Origin: Methylotenera sp. L2L1
GTDB lineage: Bacteria; Pseudomonadota; Gammaproteobacteria; Burkholderiales; Methylophilaceae
Direction of reading: 5' to 3'
Assembly (NCBI RefSeq): GCF_000744605.1
Contig: NZ_JQMG01000001.1
Coordinates: forward strand, 1,426,001 to 1,490,000
Length of the DNA: 64,000 nucleotides
Part shown: positions 40,514 to 49,583 of the stretch, piece after piece
Numbering within the stretch: the first letter of the stretch is position 1
Layout: the number at the start of each line of letters is the position of its first letter
Position numbers and translations under genes: made by a program
Notes under the pieces: generated by a model
Database searches by the model: none
Seen by the model: the letters and a program-made list of their open reading frames with translations, nothing else
What the model was told of the DNA's origin: nothing

Positions 40514-40586
40514 TATATGCTATTTAGTCATTGAGTGTTTTTAAAAGAAAAACGTCCCATTCTTTCGAATGAGGCGTCTTTATTGG

Positions 40587-40625
40587 GAAAGAGGGACTTG
40601 AACCCTCGACCCCAGGATTATGAAT
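40587..40625. repeat. Left attachment site with tRNA-Met remnant
   Basis: Identical over 39 bases to 49514-49552. Homology continues left through the tRNA terminator hairpin (from 40551) with substitutions and a four-base deletion in the acceptor-CCA region, so this copy is a nonfunctional remnant. Beyond 40625 it diverges abruptly from the tRNA, marking the recombination boundary. Confidence 0.9.
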
Positions 40626-40756
40626 TTGAGCTGTAAGTTATTGTTTATTATTGAAATTGTACTAATTTCTTTTAAGAAACATGAATTTAGTAGCCAGATG
40701 ATTGCTACCAATTTTTACATAGATATACTGCGTTTTAAGTACTTTTTCTCGATTTG

Positions 40757-40777
40757 GGCTACTAGGTGGCTACTAAT
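40757..40777. repeat. Candidate integrase arm sites, left end
   Basis: A 21-bp sequence consisting of two copies of GGCTACTA separated by three bases; it recurs identically at 49433-49453 inside the right end. An inverted TGGCTACTA also lies at 40688-40696. Repeated nonamers at both ends of a tyrosine-recombinase element are typical of arm-type integrase or excisionase sites; binding is inferred. Confidence 0.65.
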
Positions 40778-40811
40778 TTTTTAACGAGAAAATAGTAGAA
40801 CGGAGTATAAA

Positions 40812-42053
40812 ATGCTGCACAAATTAACTAAATCATTTGTAGATAAAGTTTCATTTGAACAATCAGGTCAAATTTTTTATCGTGATTCTGAATTATTGGG
40901 TTTTGGTTTACGCGTAGGTAAATCAGCAAAAGTTTATTATGCTGAAGCCAAGCTTCACGGAAAAACTGTCAGAAAATCTATTGCAAGACATAATGTTGTT
41001 TCATTAGATGAAGCACGCTCACAAGCTAAATCTTACTTGGCTGAAATCTCCCGTGGTAAAAATCCACATGATGAAGAAAAAGCCAGGAAAGCAAAATTAG
41101 TTACCTTATCCGAAGTGCTAGAAAACTATATTGAAGCACGTGGCAATTTGCAGCGTAGCACCATTCAAGATTATCGACATACCTTTGATGCATATCTACA
41201 TGATTGGTTAAAAAAGCCAGCCATTGAAATATCAAAAGATATGGTGGAGCTTAAATTTAGAAAGATCAGCCAAACGAGTCCATCGCAAGCAAATAAAACC
41301 ATGCGTAACTTTAGAGCGGTCATGAATTACGCCATTATGAAATATGAAGATAGTAATGGCGACTCTATCTTTAGGCATAACCCTGTTATCAGAATTACAC
41401 AGTTACGTGCTTGGCATCGTGCAGTCAGAAGAGACACATTAATCAAGCATTATGATCTTGCTCCCTGGTATCAGGCTGTTATGAACTTATCTAATGACTC
41501 AATTGCACCCAATAGAGAAGTTGTTAAAGACTTTCTGCTGCTTGTTTTGTTTACAGGATTAAGACGAAATGAAGCTGCCAAACTCACTTGGAACAGAGTC
41601 GATCTTAAAGATAAAACTATCGTGATTAAAGACACTAAAAATCATACTGACCATATATTGCCACTTACGGACTTTTTACATGATTTGCTGACTAAAAGAA
41701 AAGCTGAAGCAAAAACCAAATATGTTTTTCCGAATGAAACAAATACTGGATACATGACGGATCCTAAAAAGCAGATCGCCAATGTGATAAAAGAAAGTGG
41801 CGTCAACTTTAGCACCCATGATTTAAGGCGTACATTTATCACGATTGCAGAAAGTTTAGATATCTCAGCTTATGCTCTAAAGCGGCTGCTCAATCATAAA
41901 ATGACCAATGATGTGACTGCTGGTTATATTATTTCTGATGTTGAGCGTTTGAGAGTGCCTATGCAAAAAATTACGGATTACATTTTGTATAAAATTGGTC
42001 AGAAAGAAAAAGCCGATGTAATCCCGATTCAGATGTTGCAAGCTAGCGCATAA
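40812..42053 (+). CDS. int: Tyrosine integrase (DUF4102/P4-like)
   Basis: Site-specific recombinase that integrates and excises the element. The 413-aa protein has an N-terminal DUF4102 arm-binding domain (about 1-90: LGFGLRVGKSAKVYYAEAKL), a SAM-like core-binding domain (about 100-200: NLQRSTIQDYRHTFDAYLHDWL) and a catalytic domain with Arg251 in FTGLRRNEAAKLTW, Lys near 277, His336 and Arg339 in STHDLRRTF, LLNHKM, and nucleophile Tyr372 in TAGYIIS. All active-site residues are present. It starts 187 bases inside the left att site; GAGT-rich sequence before the ATG (AACGGAGTATAAA) serves as ribosome site. Confidence 0.95.
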   Translation: MLHKLTKSFVDKVSFEQSGQIFYRDSELLGFGLRVGKSAKVYYAEAKLHGKTVRKSIARHNVVSLDEARSQAKSYLAEISRGKNPHDEEKARKAKLVTLSEVLENYIEARGNLQRSTIQDYRHTFDAYLHDWLKKPAIEISKDMVELKFRKISQTSPSQANKTMRNFRAVMNYAIMKYEDSNGDSIFRHNPVIRITQLRAWHRAVRRDTLIKHYDLAPWYQAVMNLSNDSIAPNREVVKDFLLLVLFTGLRRNEAAKLTWNRVDLKDKTIVIKDTKNHTDHILPLTDFLHDLLTKRKAEAKTKYVFPNETNTGYMTDPKKQIANVIKESGVNFSTHDLRRTFITIAESLDISAYALKRLLNHKMTNDVTAGYIISDVERLRVPMQKITDYILYKIGQKEKADVIPIQMLQASA

Positions 42054-42059
42054 TACACA

Positions 42060-42088
42060 TTGACATCTGTAACGTTACGCATTACATT
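42060..42088 (+). promoter_or_regulatory. Strong promoter with palindromic operator for higBA
   Basis: TTGACA (42060-42065) and TACATT (42083-42088) are spaced by exactly 17 bases. The spacer holds the perfect palindrome GTAACGTTAC (42069-42078), a likely HigA operator for autorepression. Transcription would start about 15 bases before the higB ATG. Confidence 0.7.
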
Positions 42089-42109
42089 GTGAAGCAAATA
42101 CCATAAAAT

Positions 42110-42388
42110 ATGATTAAAACATTCAAACATAAAGGGCTCAAAGATTTCTTTGAGAGCGGAAGTAAAGCAGGGATAAGACCCGATCACGCTTCTAAGTTAA
42201 GTCGTCAGTTAGTGCGTTTAGATATTGCTAAAGTACCTGCTGATATGAATCTACCAGGATGGAGACTTCACCCATTAGAAGGTGAATTAGCAGGTCATTA
42301 CTCAGTCACCGTCAACGGTAACTGGCGCATGACTTTTATGTTTGATGGTGAAGATGCAATCCTGGTTGATTATCAGGACTATCACTAG
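42110..42388 (+). CDS. higB: HigB-type (RelE superfamily) toxin
   Basis: A 92-aa ribosome-dependent mRNA interferase. IKTFKHKGLKDFFESGSKAGI, LSRQLVRLDIA, LPGWRLHPLEGELAGHYSVTVNGNWRMTFMF fit the HigB/GraT subfamily, including the late basic-aromatic active-site strand. The toxin gene comes first, 12 bases before higA, as usual for this family. It may stabilise the element in the chromosome or take part in defence. Confidence 0.94.
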   Translation: MIKTFKHKGLKDFFESGSKAGIRPDHASKLSRQLVRLDIAKVPADMNLPGWRLHPLEGELAGHYSVTVNGNWRMTFMFDGEDAILVDYQDYH

Positions 42389-42400
42389 AAAGGAATTGAT

Positions 42401-42706
42401 ATGAGCAGAATACATAACCCACCACACCCTGGTGAAACATTGAGAGAAGATATTCTTCCTGCGCTCGGCTTGAGTGTTACCGAGGCTGCCGAACAGTTAG
42501 GCGTAGCACGCCCTTCTTTATCGCGTGTACTAAACGGCCATGCAGCGATTTCGCCTGAGATGGCGTTACGTATTGAAAAGTGGTTAGGTGTCGAGAATGG
42601 CGGTAGTGCTGACTTATGGATATCTGAGCAAGCCTCATATGATCTTTGGCAAGCAAGAAGCAAATTTAATGCAAAAGTAACACCAGCAGAACTTTTAGTC
42701 GCCTGA
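42401..42706 (+). CDS. higA: HigA-type antitoxin
   Basis: A 101-aa Xre-family antitoxin and autorepressor. [29 protein letters not shown] opens the helix-turn-helix, completed by [27 protein letters not shown]; the tail contacts the toxin. AAAGGA precedes the ATG closely. It pairs with higB and probably binds the palindrome in the upstream promoter. Confidence 0.94.
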
Positions 42707-42722
42707 ATGCTAAAAACACTTT

Positions 42723-42759
42723 GAACTAGACCAGCTTGTATTTAAGGTTGGTCTGGTTC
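42723..42759. terminator. Hairpin after higBA
   Basis: GAACTAGACCA (42723-42733) pairs with TGGTCTGGTTC (42749-42759), one G-T pair, and the stem can extend inward. The T-tract is poor, so termination would be weak or factor-aided. Confidence 0.5.
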
Positions 42760-42773
42760 ATATCAACAAATAT

Positions 42774-42791
42774 ATGGTTTATATAAACCAT
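42774..42791. promoter_or_regulatory. Perfect 18-bp palindrome upstream of the mrr-like gene
   Basis: ATGGTTTATATAAACCAT at 42774-42791 is fully self-complementary, about 190 bases before the Mrr-like gene. Such a site usually binds a dimeric regulator; the likeliest resident regulators are HigA or the AlpA-like protein. The function is inferred. The 278-base spacer (42707-42984) has no other evident gene. Confidence 0.5.
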
Positions 42792-42984
42792 CACCCCAAA
42801 GAAAACCAATTAAATTCACGCTGGATTAATTGCTATCCGTTTGAATCATATAATAAATTCATCATAGATGAAGGCTGCGAAATCTAGGAATGATTCTTGC
42901 AATCTCAGTTTGGATAAAATTTACAGGTATCTAAAATAAGGATATTCAAAAAGTAAATTTCAACGCTGAGGAATAGAGGCAAGA

Positions 42985-44109
42985 GTGCGCTATAAGAAAA
43001 AGAAAACTTCACTTTTAGAGCAAGTGTTAAGTTCCGATTGGAAATTTTCGGCAGTATTGGCTGCAATCATCCTCGGATTTTCGTTTGTGATACTTCCAAT
43101 AGTTGGACTTTCAAACAAAATTATCAAAATGCTGATGCCGTTCATTCAATCGCTTTCAGTGTTGGTGATTGTATTCTTATCAATGGTTGCAATCGTCAAA
43201 GTCTTAATCGCCATCATCTTAAAAAACAAAGAGAAAAGAAGTACTGATTTTCTTAATCCACGCTTGGCAAGATTTAGTGATCAAGATAAAGACGACAAAA
43301 GCTTTGATCGTGTAGCGCCATTCATTACGCATCAAGAAGAATCAAATAACTCTGATCAGCCCTCATCCTCATCTTCTGATGTAAAGAAAAGTCACCAGTA
43401 TGGTTACGCACCTGTCGTCAATCCAAGTTTAAATAGAACCAATACGCGAGTAGAACCGTTTATTGCAGAGCAAAATAAAGCTACCTACGAAGCACCGAAA
43501 GTTGAAGATGTTCGGGATAAGTGGACGCTGGACTTTATCAACTCACTTGAGTGGAAAAGGTTTGAAGATATCACTAGTGCATATTTTCATGAAATCGGGA
43601 TTAAGAATAAACAAACTGGTCTTGGCGCAGATGGCGGTATTGATTTGCTTTTGTATGAAACAAATGCAGAGCAACCTACGGCGATTGTGCAATGTAAGAA
43701 ATGGTCAAATGTAGTCGGGATAAAACTTTTAAGAGAGTTTTTAGGCGTGATGTCGCATCAAGGCGTTGCTAAAGGATATTTCTTTACGACTGATAAATTT
43801 AACCAGGAAGCAATCAAATTTTCCAAAGAGCACAATATAGAGTTAGTTGACGGTAAAACACTCATCGCTAAGTTGCAGCGATTATCTCCTGAGTCACAAT
43901 ATCGAGTTTACACAAACATCACAAGCGGTGATTACACTACGCCAACTTGCGTACGTTGTGGCGCTAAGATGGTGTTAAGAAAAACAGAAGAAAAAGAATT
44001 TTGGGGATGCAAAAACTTTCCTAAGTGTAGAACGGTAATTAATATTAAAACACCACCTAAACCTAAGCCGCCAAGAAAGTTTGGTTTTAGATTAAAGAAA
44101 GTTAGGTAA
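42985..44109 (+). CDS. Membrane-anchored Mrr-like endonuclease with zinc finger
   Basis: A 374-aa protein. Two transmembrane helices lie at about 19-42 and 50-77; a low-complexity Ser/Asp-rich linker runs to about 175. Residues ~180-300 form an Mrr-type PD-(D/E)xK nuclease: ADGGIDLLLYE (catalytic Asp), IVQCKKW (QxK), and REFLGVMSHQGVAKGYFFTTDKF. The C-terminus is a topoisomerase-type zinc ribbon (CVRCG ... WGCKNFPKC, four Cys). Start is GTG 42985 behind AGAGG. Mrr-family proteins cut modified DNA; membrane tethering suggests action on incoming DNA, by inference. Confidence 0.85.
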   Translation: MRYKKKKTSLLEQVLSSDWKFSAVLAAIILGFSFVILPIVGLSNKIIKMLMPFIQSLSVLVIVFLSMVAIVKVLIAIILKNKEKRSTDFLNPRLARFSDQDKDDKSFDRVAPFITHQEESNNSDQPSSSSSDVKKSHQYGYAPVVNPSLNRTNTRVEPFIAEQNKATYEAPKVEDVRDKWTLDFINSLEWKRFEDITSAYFHEIGIKNKQTGLGADGGIDLLLYETNAEQPTAIVQCKKWSNVVGIKLLREFLGVMSHQGVAKGYFFTTDKFNQEAIKFSKEHNIELVDGKTLIAKLQRLSPESQYRVYTNITSGDYTTPTCVRCGAKMVLRKTEEKEFWGCKNFPKCRTVINIKTPPKPKPPRKFGFRLKKVR

Positions 44110-44127
44110 AACCTGAGAAGTTGTTAA

Positions 44128-44955
44128 GTGGCGAGGATGCAAGATTTTTCTAAGATAAGTTTGTGGGACATATGTCATTATTGGCATGGATACAATCCGC
44201 AAAGGACTCTACCTTCTAAGCTACCAACGAAGGTTCAAATTTCAATTAGATCACTAGCACTTAAACTTTCAAAGACGCTATATTTTAGGATTAATGTAAA
44301 TACTATTCCATATCGAGTTTTTTATGAGGAACCTACACCAGTTAGATATATCGCTCGTATCTATCAACGTGAATTAAAAAGTGCCTATACGGGCAAACGG
44401 TATAAGAAAAAATTTCTACAAAGCATTGAAATCGGTCGATTAAGTCTACTTAAATGGTGCCAAGAGACAAACACGCCAGCCCCCAGTTTTTGGTTTGATG
44501 AAAATGATCCAATACTAGCCAAACCTGTAGAAAGTCCATTCTTTGATTGGTCTGAAGATGAAAAAAGAAAACATGGCTATTTTGCACTTTTTGAGACCGC
44601 TGAATCTGATCCTAAAGTAAAGGCGACCAGTCAATCTTCCGATATTAACCCATCGTCTTTTGATAGCACTGAATTTAAAGAAAAAGATAACATCATCAAG
44701 AAAGCATTGAGCGAGCTAAATTCGAAAAATGCAAAATCACGTTATGTAGCGGCAGATAAAATTAAAAGTGACTACAAAGATTTTTTTAGAGCGAATGAAT
44801 CTAAATATAAATACAAAAGCCATGCTGCGCGAGACTTCTTTAATAATCTAAACGAAAAAGATAAAAAAGAGATTGTTCCTACATATTTTGAAAAAAACCA
44901 TGAGAGCTGCCTAGAAAAGGCTGTCCTTAACCTGAATAAGGTATTGAAAGACTAG
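44128..44955 (+). CDS. Unrecognised island protein, 275 aa
   Basis: Not recognised. The N-terminal 130 residues (FSKISLWDICHYWHGYNP, IRSLALKLSKTLYFRIN) contain many aromatic and basic residues; the middle has an acidic WSEDEKRKHGYF stretch; the C-terminal 70 are lysine-rich and helical (NIIKKALSELNSKNAKSRYVAADKI). It resembles the general style of satellite-element accessory proteins with a C-terminal helix-turn-helix-like region, but no motif is diagnostic. It follows the Mrr-like gene by 18 bases and is probably cotranscribed. Start GTG 44128 or ATG 44137 is undecided. Confidence 0.55.
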   Translation: MARMQDFSKISLWDICHYWHGYNPQRTLPSKLPTKVQISIRSLALKLSKTLYFRINVNTIPYRVFYEEPTPVRYIARIYQRELKSAYTGKRYKKKFLQSIEIGRLSLLKWCQETNTPAPSFWFDENDPILAKPVESPFFDWSEDEKRKHGYFALFETAESDPKVKATSQSSDINPSSFDSTEFKEKDNIIKKALSELNSKNAKSRYVAADKIKSDYKDFFRANESKYKYKSHAARDFFNNLNEKDKKEIVPTYFEKNHESCLEKAVLNLNKVLKD

Positions 44956-44965
44956 TTCGTTATAT

Positions 44966-45001
44966 ATCTGCGCGCACACGTATATACCTCTGCGCGCAGA
45001 T
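44966..45001. other. GC-rich inverted repeat upstream of alpA-rep (possible replication origin)
   Basis: ATCTGCGCGCA (44966-44976) and its exact complement TGCGCGCAGAT (44991-45001) enclose a 14-base A+T-rich loop (CACGTATATACCTC). A GC-rich stem with an A+T-rich loop just before a HUH Rep gene is what a rolling-circle nick site looks like. This is inference; an operator is the alternative. Confidence 0.5.
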
Positions 45002-45033
45002 GTAATTTCAACACTATTCAATAGCCAGCAAAC

Positions 45034-45064
45034 TGTGTCCTCCATTTACCAAATAAAGGACACA
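45034..45064. promoter_or_regulatory. Inverted repeat over the alpA ribosome site
   Basis: TGTGTCCT (45034-45041) and AGGACACA (45057-45064) pair exactly, and the right arm contains the AAAGGA ribosome site of the AlpA-like gene. Either an operator or an RNA hairpin that hides the site could result. A related GTCCT/AGGAC repeat lies after rep at 46281-46309. Confidence 0.55.
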
Positions 45065-45069
45065 ACAAA

Positions 45070-45279
45070 ATGCAAATTCAAACTGAACTGCTGCATACCA
45101 AAGATGCAGCAAAATTTCTTAATGTAAGCGTGGCTTTTTTAGAGCGAGATCGCTGGGCAGGTGCAAGAATCCCATTTGTCAAAGTGGGATCGCGTGCCGT
45201 GCGTTATCGTTTAGAAGATCTACACGCATATATCAACAATCAACGCCAAGACTCTGTATTGGAGTCTCGCCATGATTAA
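45070..45279 (+). CDS. AlpA-like helix-turn-helix regulator/excisionase
   Basis: A 69-aa DNA-binding protein of the AlpA/excisionase (helix-turn-helix 17) class. LLHTKDAAKFLNVSVAFLERDRWAG is the winged-helix start, followed by IPFVKVGSRAVRYRLEDLHAYI, the typical second half. Such proteins activate excision or the integrase in satellites. AAAGGA precedes the ATG. It overlaps rep by eight bases, so both are translated from one message. Confidence 0.88.
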   Translation: MQIQTELLHTKDAAKFLNVSVAFLERDRWAGARIPFVKVGSRAVRYRLEDLHAYINNQRQDSVLESRHD

Positions 45280-46222
45280 TTTGGATAAATTTATCATTGG
45301 TGGCGAAGTCGTGCATGAAACTTTGCCCTCTGACCATCCTTTGGTGAGAGGGCAGCCAATCAATACACCTATTTACGATCAAGATTATCAATGGCGATTA
45401 AAAATACAGGCATTTACCCAAGGCGGATTTGAAGCCAAAGCGGTATTAGTCAATCGCAACCATTTAAACCGTTTGGTCAATCTCAATAGAGAACGTGGTA
45501 AGCGACCAGCACCTAAAGAGAAAGACGAAGAGGCAACTAAAAGAGATTTAGAAAAGTGTGCTTACCGTGCCGCAAGAAGAGTACGCCATCTTTGTTTAGA
45601 AATACGTGCAGATCGCTTACTCACTCTGACCAGTCGTAATTTACTGACAGATTATGATCAGCTCACCGCTACCTGGAAACGATTTATGCGCTTATTAGAA
45701 AGTGCTGGTGAATCATTTGAATATGTTGCAGTGCCAGAGCTCCATAAAAACGGTGAGCATTACCATATTCATGCTGCGATTAATGGCTTTGCTCGCGTCG
45801 AACTACTGCGTAAATGCTGGCAGATTGCGCTCGGTGGAAAGGGTAGTGAAAGGGGTGCAGATGCGCTTGGTAATGTTGATATTAAGTCGACAAGGCGTAA
45901 GGGGCAGCACAAAAGTAAACAAGCCATAGGCGTTGCAAAATACATCTCTAAGTACATTACCAAAAGCTATATTGAACATCACCAATTCAACCGAAAACGC
46001 TATTGGGCGCCTCGTTCTATTAAGCTACCTGAGACAACGGCAGAATGGATGCAAGCAGAGTATTTAGCCGATGCTGTACAAGAGCTTTACTCACGATTTG
46101 ATACTGCCATTATGGTTGAAGCGGTGAAAGACAGAAGCTTATACATAACAGAAGCAAACGTACCAATGATATTTATGCGCTATTTACCGAACGAAGAAAA
46201 ACCTTTACCAACGCCATTTTAG
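45272..46222 (+). CDS. rep: HUH replication initiator (Rep)
   Basis: A 316-aa rolling-circle replication initiator-like protein, of the REP_ORF2/Gp2 kind seen in inovirus-like and integrative plasmid elements. Metal-binding HUH: His165-Ile166-His167 in GEHYHIHAAINGF, preceded by EYVAVPELHKNG. Two candidate nicking tyrosines, Tyr224 and Tyr228, lie in VAKYISKYITK, a Y-x3-Y arrangement. RLLTLTSRNLL is the first motif. It should nick an origin on the element; hairpins before and after are candidates. Confidence 0.87.
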   Translation: MINLDKFIIGGEVVHETLPSDHPLVRGQPINTPIYDQDYQWRLKIQAFTQGGFEAKAVLVNRNHLNRLVNLNRERGKRPAPKEKDEEATKRDLEKCAYRAARRVRHLCLEIRADRLLTLTSRNLLTDYDQLTATWKRFMRLLESAGESFEYVAVPELHKNGEHYHIHAAINGFARVELLRKCWQIALGGKGSERGADALGNVDIKSTRRKGQHKSKQAIGVAKYISKYITKSYIEHHQFNRKRYWAPRSIKLPETTAEWMQAEYLADAVQELYSRFDTAIMVEAVKDRSLYITEANVPMIFMRYLPNEEKPLPTPF

Positions 46223-46225
46223 GCA

Positions 46226-46309
46226 TCGGTCGCACGCACCGCGCGCCACGCGTCAGCGTGCCGCACGGAGCGGAGCGACGATGTCCTTTAGACTAGATAT
46301 AAAGGACAT
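46226..46309. other. GC-rich structured block and 10-bp inverted repeat after rep
   Basis: 46226-46280 is strikingly G+C-rich in an A+T-rich region, with short palindromes (CACGC-GTCA-GCGTG at 46247-46260; GTCGC/GCGAC outside). Then ATGTCCTTTA (46281-46290) pairs exactly with TAAAGGACAT (46300-46309). The rest of the 197-base space up to the next gene is A+T-rich. It may be a second origin, a terminator or a regulator site; no coding is apparent. Confidence 0.5.
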
Positions 46310-46437
46310 TTAAGTACAGAAAATAATGAAATATTAATAATCATTTATTAGTGCTATTAATTTAAATATTAAAGTTGGACTTATGATCTTAAATAATTTA
46401 TAAACTAATAAACAATAATTTGAAAAGTACACGACCT

Positions 46438-48126
46438 ATGCAAGATGATTTCATTAGCTCATTACAAATCAACAAATACTCTTTTACTAAAGCTAGCTCA
46501 GAAGCGTTTACCCTAAACAATTACATGAAGAATTCATGGCCGATTGTTTACGTTATTAAAGATGATGACAAAAAAGAAGCATATGTTGGTGAATCAACTG
46601 ATGCTATCACTCGTATGAAAAGTCATTTGTCTAATAAAGAGCGCTCTAAGCTTAAAGATCTACTCATTATTAGCTGTGATAAGTTTAATAAATCTGCTGC
46701 CTTAGATATTGAATCTAACTTAATACAATATATGTCCGCAGATAAAACTTACACATTGCAAAATGGAAATGCTGGGTTAGCAAATCATAATTATTATCAG
46801 CGTGACCAATATACAATGTTATTTAAAAGTATATGGGGGCAGCTAATAAGCCGAAAATATGCTAAAAATCCTCTATCTAGTTTAGAGAACTCTGAACTAT
46901 TCAAATATTCACCTTATAAATCCTTAACATCCGATCAGCATAATTCTGTGTCAGAAATACTTGGCAGACTGAGCACTAAACAAAGAAGCACATTTTTTGT
47001 AGAAGGTGGAGCAGGAACAGGTAAAACAATATTAGCTGTGTACCTGATGAAGCTACTAAAAACAGATATTATTGATTTTAACCTTGATGAAGTCAATGAA
47101 GTCCATGCCTCAGAATTAGCACAGATTCTACAGCTTAAAGAAAACAACCCACTCCCTCGTATAGCATTGGTCGTTCCAATGACATCGTTGCGTAAAACAC
47201 TTCAAAAAGTCTTTCGAAATGTTAAGGGCTTAAGTGCAAGTATGGTTATAGGGCCATCAGAAGTTTCTAAAAATGAATACGACTTACTGATTGTAGATGA
47301 GGCTCACCGTTTACGTAAGCGTAAAAATATTACCAACTTTAAAAGCTTTGATGATGCAAATAAATTACTTGGTTTTGATAAGGAAACAGGAACAGAAATC
47401 GACTGGATTTTAAAGCAGTCAAAAAACCAAATTTTCTTTTACGACTCACATCAATCAATTAAGCCATCTGATATTGATCAAAGTAAATTTGAGTCAGTCA
47501 GAATGGGGGAAAATGTTTACTCATTAAAGTTGCTTTCTCAACTTAGAGTAAAGGGAGGAGTAGATTATATTAGTTACATTGATAACTTATTACATTGTCG
47601 GCTTGAAGAAAGCGATAATAAGTTTAAGAGCGATAACTATGAATTCAAGCTATATGATTCATTAAAAGAGCTTTACTCAGATCTTAAAATTAAAGAGGAA
47701 GAGTTTGGTTTGTGTCGGCTACTTTCTGGTTATTCCTGGGAGTGGAAATCTCTTAAGGAGAATGTACCAGATATTACTATTGAAGGTTTAGATTTAAAGT
47801 GGAACGCCACCAATGAAGATTGGATCAATTCAGAAAATGCTTTTAATGAAGTAGGTTGTATTCATACAACACAGGGATACGACTTAAATTACACAGGTAT
47901 TATTTTTGGAGAAGAAATCACCTACAACCCTGATACAAAAAGTATCGAAATTATTGCTAAGAATTACTTCGATAAGAAGGGGAAAAACGGCATTAAAAAC
48001 CCAGCATTATTAAAAGAGTATATTTTGAATATTTATAAAACGATGATGCTACGCGGTATAAAAGGGACGTATGTATATGTCTGTAATGATGCTCTTAGAA
48101 AGTACTTCAAAAGCTTTATCTTATAA
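46438..48126 (+). CDS. GIY-YIG nuclease fused to DUF2075 helicase-like ATPase
   Basis: A 562-aa protein from ATG 46438 (a TTG at 46420 is in frame; the residue numbers here count from it). A GIY-YIG nuclease at about 40-130 shows IVYVI (42-46), AYVGES (54-59), an Arg at 65, and a glutamate in ALDIESNLIQY. The DUF2075 NTPase follows: Walker A EGGAGTGKT (Lys202), Walker B LLIVDEAHRLRK (Asp293, Glu294), late motifs LLSGYSWEWKS, EVGCIHTTQGYDLNYTGIIFG and LRGIKGTYVYVC. Likely a nucleic-acid-cleaving helicase. It ends six bases inside the convergent MazG-like gene. Confidence 0.88.
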   Translation: MQDDFISSLQINKYSFTKASSEAFTLNNYMKNSWPIVYVIKDDDKKEAYVGESTDAITRMKSHLSNKERSKLKDLLIISCDKFNKSAALDIESNLIQYMSADKTYTLQNGNAGLANHNYYQRDQYTMLFKSIWGQLISRKYAKNPLSSLENSELFKYSPYKSLTSDQHNSVSEILGRLSTKQRSTFFVEGGAGTGKTILAVYLMKLLKTDIIDFNLDEVNEVHASELAQILQLKENNPLPRIALVVPMTSLRKTLQKVFRNVKGLSASMVIGPSEVSKNEYDLLIVDEAHRLRKRKNITNFKSFDDANKLLGFDKETGTEIDWILKQSKNQIFFYDSHQSIKPSDIDQSKFESVRMGENVYSLKLLSQLRVKGGVDYISYIDNLLHCRLEESDNKFKSDNYEFKLYDSLKELYSDLKIKEEEFGLCRLLSGYSWEWKSLKENVPDITIEGLDLKWNATNEDWINSENAFNEVGCIHTTQGYDLNYTGIIFGEEITYNPDTKSIEIIAKNYFDKKGKNGIKNPALLKEYILNIYKTMMLRGIKGTYVYVCNDALRKYFKSFIL

Positions 48127-48450
48127 ATCTGTGTATTTCTTTGCATTGCCTTTTGCTTTATTGATAGGGTATTTCAACGCATTTTTTTCTATCTTATCAA
48201 TCATGATTTTTTTAATGTCGAAGTCATATTTATTTGCGATGAGTAGTGCAAATGCTAGGATGTCTGCTAATTCTTCTTTGATACGCTCTTGATCAGGATC
48301 ATCTGCAGATTTCCAGAGAAATAATTCAAGTAGCTCGCTTGACTCAATATTTAAAGCAATTGCTAAATCTTTTGCGTTATGAAATTGTGACCAATCTCGC
48401 TCGTCTCTAAATTGAACTAATGCATTTGTTAAATATTTAATATCAGACAT
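48121..48450 (-). CDS. MazG-like nucleotide pyrophosphohydrolase
   Basis: A 109-aa all-alpha NTP pyrophosphatase of the MazG/RS21-C6 type. The Mg site is visible as ESSELLE (IESSELLELFLW) and EELADIL (IKEELADILAF), the EExxE...ExxD pattern. It may hydrolyse dCTP-like or modified nucleotides. It is tail to tail with the GIY-YIG/DUF2075 gene and upstream of no other minus gene. Start ATG 48450 is preceded by GGGGGAT. Short island MazG proteins are known from defence contexts and phages; its partner is not proven. Confidence 0.88.
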   Translation of the reverse strand: MSDIKYLTNALVQFRDERDWSQFHNAKDLAIALNIESSELLELFLWKSADDPDQERIKEELADILAFALLIANKYDFDIKKIMIDKIEKNALKYPINKAKGNAKKYTDL

Positions 48451-48537
48451 TTTTGATCATCCCCCTAAAAATTTGATTGCTTTAGTTTTCAGCAAATATT
48501 AACTTGGTTCTGCAATCCCTACTGACAGTTTTTAGCT

Positions 48538-49203
48538 TTATTTAGAAAATAGATTTAGTGGGAAACTTGCCTTTTTAGCATTTACATATTTCGCCATTTT
48601 TTCAATTCTTCGGTAGTGTGCCATTATAAGTTTGGATGATTCTTCTATATCTTTAGTGTGTTTGTCTAATTCAGCGAGGCTGTTAAATCCCAAACCTTTT
48701 GCCAACTCGTCATTAAGTTTATTTACAAGAGCTATCTGATCTTTCTCTAATTTTAGAATGTTGTTTTTTTCTTTTATTCTTCTATTTTTCAAATCTATAT
48801 AAATCTTATGCAATTTTTGATAACTGACGTATAGACCACCACCCGTAGACGCCATAGTTGCTATATAGATTCCCATGGATTTTGCTACTTGTAATGCTAC
48901 ATCTGGATTAAGGGCTAGTTCTATCCAGCCGGGAGAGTTGTATTGAATGGATTTAACTTGGGGCTTCTCATTAATGGCAATGTGACTCCGGAAAATATCA
49001 TACATATTTACGTAACTAAGCCCATCTCTAAGTTCGTACGTTTCTAAAACTGATTTAATTCTCGAAGGTGCTATGTCTACTGCCTCGGTATCTAAGCAAT
49101 ATATAAAAGAGTAGTTTTGAAAGTAAAGTCTTGAAAAATTCATTAAATCTTCGAGAGACCAATCTCCATCTATCAAAATCCCATAGTTTTTTTCATTAGC
49201 CAT
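48538..49203 (-). CDS. Unrecognised island protein with coiled coil, 221 aa
   Basis: Not recognised. The N-terminal ~85 residues look globular (NYGILIDGDWSLEDLMNFSRLYFQNYSF). In the middle, VKSIQYNSPGWIELALNPDVALQVAKSMGIYI resembles the S-P-x-x-I/E-hydrophobic pattern, followed by a membrane-like or buried segment, found in uncharacterised proteins near NTPases. Residues ~140-205 are a long charged coiled coil. GGGAGATAAAAA upstream of the ATG is a good ribosome site. It is 87 bases from the MazG-like gene and in the same direction, so they may be an operon. Confidence 0.6.
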   Translation of the reverse strand: MANEKNYGILIDGDWSLEDLMNFSRLYFQNYSFIYCLDTEAVDIAPSRIKSVLETYELRDGLSYVNMYDIFRSHIAINEKPQVKSIQYNSPGWIELALNPDVALQVAKSMGIYIATMASTGGGLYVSYQKLHKIYIDLKNRRIKEKNNILKLEKDQIALVNKLNDELAKGLGFNSLAELDKHTKDIEESSKLIMAHYRRIEKMAKYVNAKKASFPLNLFSK

Positions 49204-49470
49204 TATTTTTTATCTCCCGAGATATTAAACCCACACTATTTTCCGATTATGTGAAACTAGGTTGGATTATTTTTATAAAACAGTAACAGGCTATATAAAA
49301 GTAATCAATAAAATGACAGTAATTAAGATGAATATTGCTCATTGACCTAGCGCCGCTAATTAGACGTCTAAGAGTTGTAATGAAATATAACTATAACAAT
49401 CACTTGAAAACACGAGTTATAATGACTTGTATGGCTACTAGGTGGCTACTAATCGAGAAATTAGCAGAAA
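49204..49470. other. Right end of the island, non-coding
   Basis: A 267-base A+T-rich stretch without a supported gene. It holds the promoter region of the 221-aa gene and, at 49433-49453, the 21-bp direct repeat that matches 40757-40777 (two TGGCTACTA-type sites at 49432-49440 and 49443-49451), the right-hand candidate integrase arm. Confidence 0.55.
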
Positions 49471-49501
49471 AAAAACGCCCCATTCTTTCGAATGAGGCGT
49501 C
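49471..49501 (-). terminator. Terminator of tRNA-Met
   Basis: On the minus strand ACGCCTCATTC pairs with GAATGGGGCGT (one G-T pair) over a GAAA tetraloop, followed by a T-run (forward A-run from about 49467). It ends the tRNA transcript. The left-hand homologue (40551-40580) has mismatches in the stem. Confidence 0.85.
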
Positions 49502-49506
49502 CTTAT

Positions 49507-49583
49507 TGGTGGTGAAAGAGGGACTTGAACCCTCGACCCCAGGATTATGAATCCTGTGCTCTAACCAGCTGAGCTACATCACC
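49507..49583 (-). tRNA. tRNA-Met (CAT)
   Basis: Seventy-seven bases including an encoded CCA. D-stem AGCTC...GAGC, anticodon arm CAGGA-TTCATAA-TCCTG with anticodon CAT, T-arm GAGGG-TTCAAGT-CCCTC. Anticodon-arm context and body match elongator tRNA-Met better than the lysidine-modified tRNA-Ile. The acceptor stem pairs GGTGATG with TTTCACC, leaving a U-U mismatch at the sixth pair and a G-U at the seventh. The 3' half (49514-49552) is the integration site of the island. Confidence 0.9.

Follow-up and report, generated by a model that had tools for sequence, protein, structure and literature searches.

A ~9-kb tRNA-Met-targeted integrative element with an HUH-type Rep and a variable defence-like slot in Methylotenera

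The window, meaning the whole stretch of DNA analysed, comprised 64,000 nt of Methylotenera sp. L2L1 (contig NZ_JQMG01000001.1, positions 1,426,001 to 1,490,000 of the forward strand; genome G000 below). It carries, in a methanol-eating bacterium, a ~9-kb island that is a complete integrative element, targeted to tRNA-Met and equipped with a Rep gene. The features, in window coordinates, are as follows.

40545..40586, minus strand: chromosomal tRNA terminator copy, outside the element, 93% identical to 49468-49509
40587..40625, minus strand: distal attachment site, a displaced tRNA-Met 3′ half of 39 bp, then a 4-nt acceptor-end deletion
40757..40777, no strand: inner repeat, 21 nt, with TAGTAGCCA units; candidate arm sites of the integrase
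40812..42053, plus strand: tyrosine integrase, 413 aa, Arm-DNA-bind_3 and Phage_integrase (profile match)
42110..42388, plus strand: HigB toxin (profile match, 3.1e-21)
42401..42706, plus strand: HigA antitoxin (profile match, 4.9e-28, over cut-off)
42985..44109, plus strand: Mrr-type nuclease with a Top1-like zinc ribbon, first cargo slot (profile match)
44128..44955, plus strand: U protein, 275 aa
45070..45279, plus strand: AlpA/excisionase-like HTH protein, 69 aa (profile match)
45272..46222, plus strand: HUH-type Rep, 316 aa (profile match)
46229..46309, plus strand: conserved hairpin region, candidate rolling-circle origin, with an invariant motif at 46289-46308
46420..48126, plus strand: Schlafen group 3 helicase with a GIY-YIG domain, defence slot (profile match)
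48121..48450, minus strand: MazG-like pyrophosphohydrolase, defence slot (profile match)
48538..49203, minus strand: PD-T4-10_B-like protein (8.2e-33), no A partner recognised, defence slot
49433..49453, no strand: inner 21-nt repeat, tRNA end
49468..49509, minus strand: element-borne tRNA terminator copy
49507..49583, minus strand: intact tRNA-Met (CAT), its 3′ part from the element, with a repeat copy at 49514-49552

The two copies of the 39-nt direct repeat (40587-40625 and 49514-49552) were 100% identical and spaced 8927 bp apart, the right-hand copy lying inside the tRNA gene called intact by ARAGORN. Beyond the repeat, homology ran on for 42 nt into the tRNA terminator, and the left copy, the displaced tRNA half, had its 4-nt deletion at the acceptor/CCA end. 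Repeat search and ARAGORN bore out a sequence-only reading of this DNA, which had described a perfect 39-bp repeat with an intact tRNA at one end and a decayed tRNA half at the other; the tyrosine integrase that it named was matched by profiles, but adjoins the displaced half, not the intact tRNA. A tRNA-targeted element should have a tyrosine integrase and a direct repeat that overlaps the 3′ end of a tRNA, and the island has both. The perfect 21-nt repeat just inside both ends (GGCTACTAGGTGGCTACTAAT) fits candidate integrase arm sites. GC content in 1-kb windows was 0.33-0.43 within 41001-49000 and mostly 0.40-0.49 outside.

Profile searches were run on 10 proteins (those of at least 92 aa, plus the 69-aa HTH protein) and confirmed the identities of the integrase, HigBA, Mrr nuclease, HTH protein, Rep, SLFN helicase and MazG. 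The pair previously read as AlpA and HUH Rep was recovered, but its "AlpA" matched HTH_17 and excisionase models and not Phage_AlpA (PF05930), the family matched by E. coli AlpA. In Rep, the HxH (165/167) and YxxxY (224/228) motifs were invariant across 7 aligned sequences. In related elements, genes located upstream of the HTH gene showed similarity to the N-terminal part of U. Predicted structures were poor (pLDDT 44 for U, whose model was unusable, and 35 for Rep), and a PDB sequence search returned 8 matches for the Rep profile, all with E of 0.29 or worse, and none for the PD-T4-10B-like protein, which stands alone, as no PD-T4-10 A antitoxin was matched among the 10 scanned proteins.

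Among these 10 proteins there was no P4-type primase-helicase or capsid-sizing gene. Nor did any match a terminase family or, as the earlier reading had held, a virion or transfer family, with the exception of relaxase-type matches of Rep below threshold; no packaging or helper-related gene was recognised in the element. Those Rep matches (Relaxase 0.009, MobL 0.053, below Pfam cut-offs), and the known use of plasmid Reps by conjugative elements, would suit an integrative mobilizable element in which Rep serves as relaxase for a conjugative plasmid. We consider this very improbable: Rep is far closer to its best families, which are phage-type (phrog_3419, 7.5e-50; PF23343, 3.6e-13), and no coupling or accessory mob gene was recognised.

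The hairpin region that follows rep on its 3′ side and contains the invariant 20-nt motif is a candidate rolling-circle origin, new to this analysis. Its fold z scores were -5.6 (plus strand) and -7.5 (minus strand) in G000, -3.9 in G138 and -5.5 in G197. Of 187 genomes of the family, 11 had the motif (at most 2 mismatches), and at 10 of these 11 loci tRNA-Met or the tRNA 3′ half lay on the 3′ side of the motif. Column alignment failed to register the outer stem, and single folds were compared by eye: the small hairpin formed in 4 of 8 folded copies (absent in G138, G149, G151 and G019), and the long hairpin was mostly missing at three more motif loci (G150, G154 and G155). Intact rep was missing at 7 of the 11 loci; decayed copies had retained the motif, cassette and tRNA and lost the rest.

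Same-type elements with exact tRNA-Met repeats were found in three other Methylophilaceae genomes. All four full elements (G000, G062, G138 and G197; 3 genera) have exact repeats at tRNA-Met and open Int, HTH and Rep frames, and none places the region at a site without the tRNA repeat, an outcome that the sequence-only reading had named as contrary to it. The empty-site relatives that it called for exist, since 8 of 13 genomes had the full tRNA and no additional 3′ half, three of them (G149, G151 and G147) with element remnants. In G014 the tRNA and terminator carry no element but are followed by 2 kb with other genes and by another terminator-like match (82%), so this genome is not a scar-free comparison.

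Between G000 and Methylotenera mobilis 13 (G062), the core was 96.2% identical over 5735 bp, against 85.9% (2029 bp) and 88.5% (5412 bp) for the host flanks, which suggests that the element moved between species after the hosts split. A 96% core could also result from a slower rate of change or from exchange via the flanks. Int and Rep identities order the lineages differently (Int: 88.5 for G000-G197 and 71.5 for G000-G138; Rep: 69.0 and 77.8, respectively), a pattern that fits module exchange, with unequal rates an alternative for these three lineages and the Rep tree indecisive.

Because the displaced half lacks 4 nt, excision of the G000 copy would probably damage the tRNA, and this copy may be locked in. 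After excision, 3 of 7 acceptor-stem positions would be mismatched, or 2 in another register, compared with 1 now; ARAGORN still calls a 73-nt tRNA in the post-excision sequence. Of the claim that the unit is complete and excisable, completeness holds and excisability is doubtful. Decay of the displaced half suggests how such elements may become locked in. The same damage (4 nt in G000, 1 nt in G197, thus 2 of 4 full elements), the motif loci without intact rep, and the presence, by reading, of defence-like genes between tRNA-Met and flhD both in G026 and in the listed part of G061, neither of which had a match to the element integrase at E 1e-60, would be expected of an island that entered once by integrase and is now fixed, its defence genes reshuffled by homologous recombination only. 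Such an island is unlikely given the undamaged tRNA halves in G062 and G138, the open frames in all four full elements, and the contrast of core and flanks, subject to the alternatives just given.

The slot between the hairpin region and the tRNA holds differing defence-like cassettes across elements, as judged from profiles and likewise new here: most relatives examined had different anti-virus-like genes in it, and 8 of 10 scanned loci matched defence profiles. At 1e-5, PADLOC models matched 12 of 16 slot proteins, against one in a set of 10 host genes chosen by hand (Fisher p 0.0018), and no complete known system was matched by the G062 525-aa ATPase or the SLFN/MazG/PD-T4-10B-like set. The cargo earlier called anti-invader is thus defence-like by profile match, and the defined slot is a place to mine for defence systems. 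Similarity between G000 and G062 ends at 46321, 13 bp past the motif end at 46308. From this, and from the decayed copies that keep motif, cassette and tRNA, it might be conjectured that the Rep hairpin is both origin and exchange point for the defence slot, in that single strands which Rep makes and which begin or end at this point would let elements trade cassettes, giving a self-replicating cassette-swapping platform with two interchangeable kinds of HUH initiator (G2P-like and P2 GPA-like); we regard this as a long shot. In 4 of 5 sibling elements examined, a P2-GPA-type initiator, also matching PF23343, lay behind a similar HTH gene, an arrangement new here.

Distant relatives of Rep occur in inovirus-type records (pMsip02 and ctiKU136) and, in three Methylophilaceae genomes (G199, G198 and G130), a few kb from Zot, and 9 kb fits a filamentous-phage particle. 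On these grounds the element might be a filamentous-phage satellite or a stripped-down descendant of such a phage, with Rep-made ssDNA packaged by a helper inovirus. This reading was weakened by the Rep tree and the Zot search, and we hold it to be improbable: the tree (long branches, midpoint root) joins the Reps of the elements to those of G041 and of a 2.3-kb Comamonas plasmid and separates them from inovirus Reps (98/95), no Zot was found in G000, G062, G138 or G197, and the element has no coat or Zot match.

In E. coli K-12, CP4-57 has an IntA-AlpA-YfjJ set in which IntA shares the main Pfam domains of the integrase and YfjJ matches PF23343, the same Rep family; the neighbouring abpB we take to have an anti-phage role. 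It differs in its true Phage_AlpA, YagK_YfjJ_C Rep type, extra DUF3987 gene and 22-kb size, and presumably sits at the tmRNA site, unlike the tRNA-Met used here. The available text on Pseudomonas I23, I44 and I55 describes IntY, AlpA, an inovirus Gp2-like protein, defence genes, an RNA-gene target with direct repeats and no transfer genes, I55 being moved by a jumbo phage (PMC12595487). The Methylotenera element likewise has a tyrosine integrase, a counterpart of the Gp2-like protein, defence cargo without transfer genes and a repeat-flanked RNA-gene target; there, however, sizes are 23-55 kb, the target is tmRNA with a 14-bp repeat (~9 kb, tRNA-Met and 39 bp here), and YqaJ and other genes not found in the Methylotenera element are present. 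The place of an I55-type AlpA regulator may be taken here by the HTH protein, with its HTH_17/excisionase match and no PF05930 match. The plan of P4-like integrase plus rolling-circle Rep, earlier called non-standard, is shared by CP4-57 and these elements, and a unique plan was rejected.

PICMI satellites of Vibrionaceae are, in the text available, small, with int, AlpA, one replication gene and defence genes before the target gene; they are described as rolling-circle replicated and without capsid-remodelling genes, require iolg, an additional gene of unknown function, for excision, and were shown to be transduced by a helper (PMC10803314). The element resembles them in size, integrase, AlpA-like gene, single replication gene, lack of capsid-remodelling genes and a slot for defence genes that lies between the replication gene and the target, but they use a primase and a fis site where it has an HUH-type Rep and tRNA-Met. 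The tycheposon-like fGI-3 of Ca. Methylopumilus and OM43, from the same bacterial family, has a tRNA-Met(cat) border and a tyrosine recombinase in common with the element, but carries metabolic and core genes, with no Rep or defence slot in the available description (PMC10872708).

We favour, at a probability of roughly 0.68, a tRNA-Met-targeted integrative element of the satellite or hitcher type, entering by integrase, replicating by Rep and carried as a passenger, with a swappable defence slot. As the anatomy shows, the integrase recombines an attP, consisting of a tRNA 3′ end and terminator, with the tRNA gene, which stays functional because attP brings these parts. The HTH protein, perhaps with U, may trigger excision, and Rep, by its family and the conserved sequence, would nick the hairpin region and copy the circle by rolling circle. 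No transfer genes were recognised, which points to passenger movement; carriage in helper-phage particles is the likeliest route and the weakest step, at somewhat under an even chance. The element would pay its way through the candidate defence cassette between origin and tRNA, which differs by element on comparison; with its displaced tRNA half decayed, the G000 copy may now be fixed.

A Rep search at E 1e-40 across 399 genomes sampled from the order recovered the element's own genome and no other, and IMG/VR yielded no match to Rep or to the exact motif. The core matched 54 plasmid records, the 10 listed being HigBA pieces (9, one unannotated) or an integrase piece (1), and the integrase gave 32 matches in phage records, all below 60% identity. 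This compact family, seen here in Methylophilaceae only, joins helper-dependent-looking islands that spread anti-phage genes. M. methylotrophus DSM 46235 is, like M. mobilis 13, a carrier whose displaced tRNA half is undamaged.

The following features of the window frame the element:

40587-49552, integrative element
49507-49583, minus strand, intact tRNA-Met

Profile searches of the element identified a tyrosine integrase (Int), HigBA, an Mrr nuclease with a zinc ribbon, a 275-aa protein of unassigned function (U), an excisionase-like HTH protein, an HUH-type Rep, a Schlafen group 3 helicase with GIY-YIG, a MazG-like protein and a PD-T4-10_B-like protein. The HxH and YxxxY motifs of Rep were invariant in 7/7 aligned sequences, which included those of the window's element and of G062 (Methylotenera mobilis 13) and two from inovirus-type records. 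Virion, packaging and transfer genes were not recognised among the ten element proteins scanned, in agreement with the sequence-only reading. Its perfect 39-bp direct repeat with an intact tRNA at one end was likewise recovered, the repeat being the 3′ part of tRNA-Met. Homology extends beyond the 39 bp, through the tRNA terminator; the tRNA 3′ end, the terminator and the arm-type sites all come with the element.

The window's genome (G000; single contig, 2.64 Mb) and G062 belong to the same genus, and the G062 element core lies at the same place with 96.2% identity over 5735 bp, versus 88.5% and 85.9% for the host DNA flanking the element. Two further full elements use the same tRNA-Met, in Methylophilus methylotrophus DSM 46235 (G138; 46-bp repeats, 6.6 kb apart) and in G197 (39-bp repeats, 9.9 kb apart). 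All four are alike at the tRNA end, where the tRNA is followed by a terminator-like hairpin and TAGTAGCCA-type units are repeated; similar units lie near the integrase end. A full-length tRNA-Met match occurred once per genome in 13/13 genomes searched. When flanks were joined in silico to mimic excision, a normal tRNA gene was restored in G062 and G138, the tRNA end was 1 nt shorter in G197, and the acceptor stem in G000 was left with additional mismatches; ARAGORN still called a tRNA in 4/4, G000 included. Predicted tRNA damage on excision suggests, without proving, that the window's copy is locked in.

Directly 3′ of rep, a GC-rich block with an invariant 20-nt motif, TAGACTAGATATAAAGGACA, was common to the four full elements, which span three genera. 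This hairpin region is a candidate origin, as judged from sequence. In G000 it comprises a long imperfect hairpin and a small one (fold z -5.6 for the plus strand and -7.5 for the minus strand). The long hairpin folded in 8/8 copies, with outer stem letters differing between copies, and the small one in 4/8 (G000, G062, G197 and G147); at three further motif loci (G150, G154 and G155) most of the long hairpin was missing, judged by eye. With up to 2 mismatches the motif was found in 11/187 family genomes (reversed control, 2 matches in all), and the exact motif in 0 IMG/VR contigs. Intact rep was missing at 7/11 motif loci. tRNA-Met or its 3′ half lay on the 3′ side of the motif at 10/11, as the half only in G019 and with the half first in G150; the remaining locus, G155, is a contig of 4.65 kb. 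The G150 locus (L145, 8548-16028) is an array of motif, tRNA 3′ half, cargo, damaged 71-nt tRNA-Met, transporter-like gene and intact tRNA-Met.

Rep relatives (E 0.001) were found in 18/187 family genomes. The close ones, in the four full elements and as rep pieces in G149, G151, G147 and G019, constitute this tRNA-Met family; distant ones in G199, G198 and G130 lie near Zot. Int and Rep identities ranked the lineages in different order, a pattern compatible with module exchange without proving it.

Cargo occupies a slot between the hairpin region and tRNA-Met. In G062 a single gene for a 525-aa ATPase-like protein replaces the window's cargo there. G197 encodes relatives of the window's SLFN helicase (28%) and MazG (65%) between Int and U, a second slot, and cassettes therefore change place. 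In G019 (L074, 7535-10363) rep is split, and an AbiEi/AbiEii-like pair, named by reading, separates its two pieces. At least one slot protein had a PADLOC match at 1e-5 at 8/10 loci scanned (G150 left out).

PADLOC matches of slot proteins, by genome
G000: PD-T4-10_B, SLFN
G062: no match
G138: HEC-06
G197: PDC-M36A
G149: AriA/AriB of PARIS
G151: retron III-A RT and PRTase
G147: type IIG RM with specificity subunit
G019: DzbA
G154: no match; NACHT protein by Pfam
G155: NsnA/PD-T4-2_A

Matches were obtained for 12/16 slot proteins versus 1/10 neighbouring host proteins (p 0.0018; host controls hand-picked, small slot ORFs of 110 aa in G151 and 141 aa in G155 left out). Several are candidate systems or single components, and the defence role is predicted. 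PD-T4-10 is described as a toxin-antitoxin defence system with the B protein as toxin.

CP4-57 has the order Int-AlpA-YfjJ, and its YfjJ matches the same Rep family as the window's Rep. I23, I44 and I55 are described as combining IntY, AlpA, an inovirus Gp2-like protein and defence genes, I55 being carried by a jumbo phage (PMC12595487). PICMIs are described as having int, AlpA and a primase, with the defence genes lying in the interval from the primase to the target, and as rolling-circle replicated and transduced (PMC10803314). The window's element would function as a passenger island in the manner of PICMIs or I55; it lacks the PICMI primase and fis target and the I55-type tmRNA site, and is thus a variant of that kind outside both families. 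By analogy, transfer by a helper phage is possible, at slightly below even odds. tRNA-gene islands are described in Methylophilaceae, strain 13 among them, and tRNA-Met tycheposon-like islands in pelagic Methylophilaceae (PMC10872708); an earlier description of this tRNA-Met element family was not found in the open-licence literature searched.

An Int search at 1e-60 gave matches in 10/187 genomes. Five more distant carriers were compared as siblings (G110 left out). In four, a gene for a P2 GPA-type initiator comes after the HTH gene (57-69% identity), and the initiator also matches PF23343 in 4/4; P2 GPA is an HUH enzyme. Neither gene was found in the fifth, G028, whose contig ends ~3.4 kb after the integrase. 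U-like genes occurred in 2/5. In G199 (L097, G199:C9, 1-5021) the GPA-type sibling adjoins genes named by reading as Cas9-like (1128 aa) and cas1/cas2-like, as well as five 42-nt repeats arrayed at 67-bp spacing.

With 1 mismatch tolerated, the 39-mer was present in 80/187 genomes, with two copies in 23 (counted by hand from the match table), many on separate contigs. At four other pairs (L154-L157; G117, G001, G072 and G196) the integrases were distant (26-31%) or unmatched to the window's Int and the gene sets differed; several element kinds therefore use the tRNA-Met site. The G001 and G072 islands appear to be copies of a single 8-kb type, and G117 has two tRNA-Met 3′ halves and no full tRNA within the stretch fetched. 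Small units of integrase and a distant Rep lie beside tRNA-Pro in G135 (L081, 7885-11400) and G207 (L082, 3569-6157); Zot was not found in either genome. The integrase of the circular, 14.6-kb Legionella fallonii plasmid III (L152) is related (81% over 170 nt), and the plasmid also carries an ATPase/helicase pair resembling Gabija by reading and a DUF927 gene.
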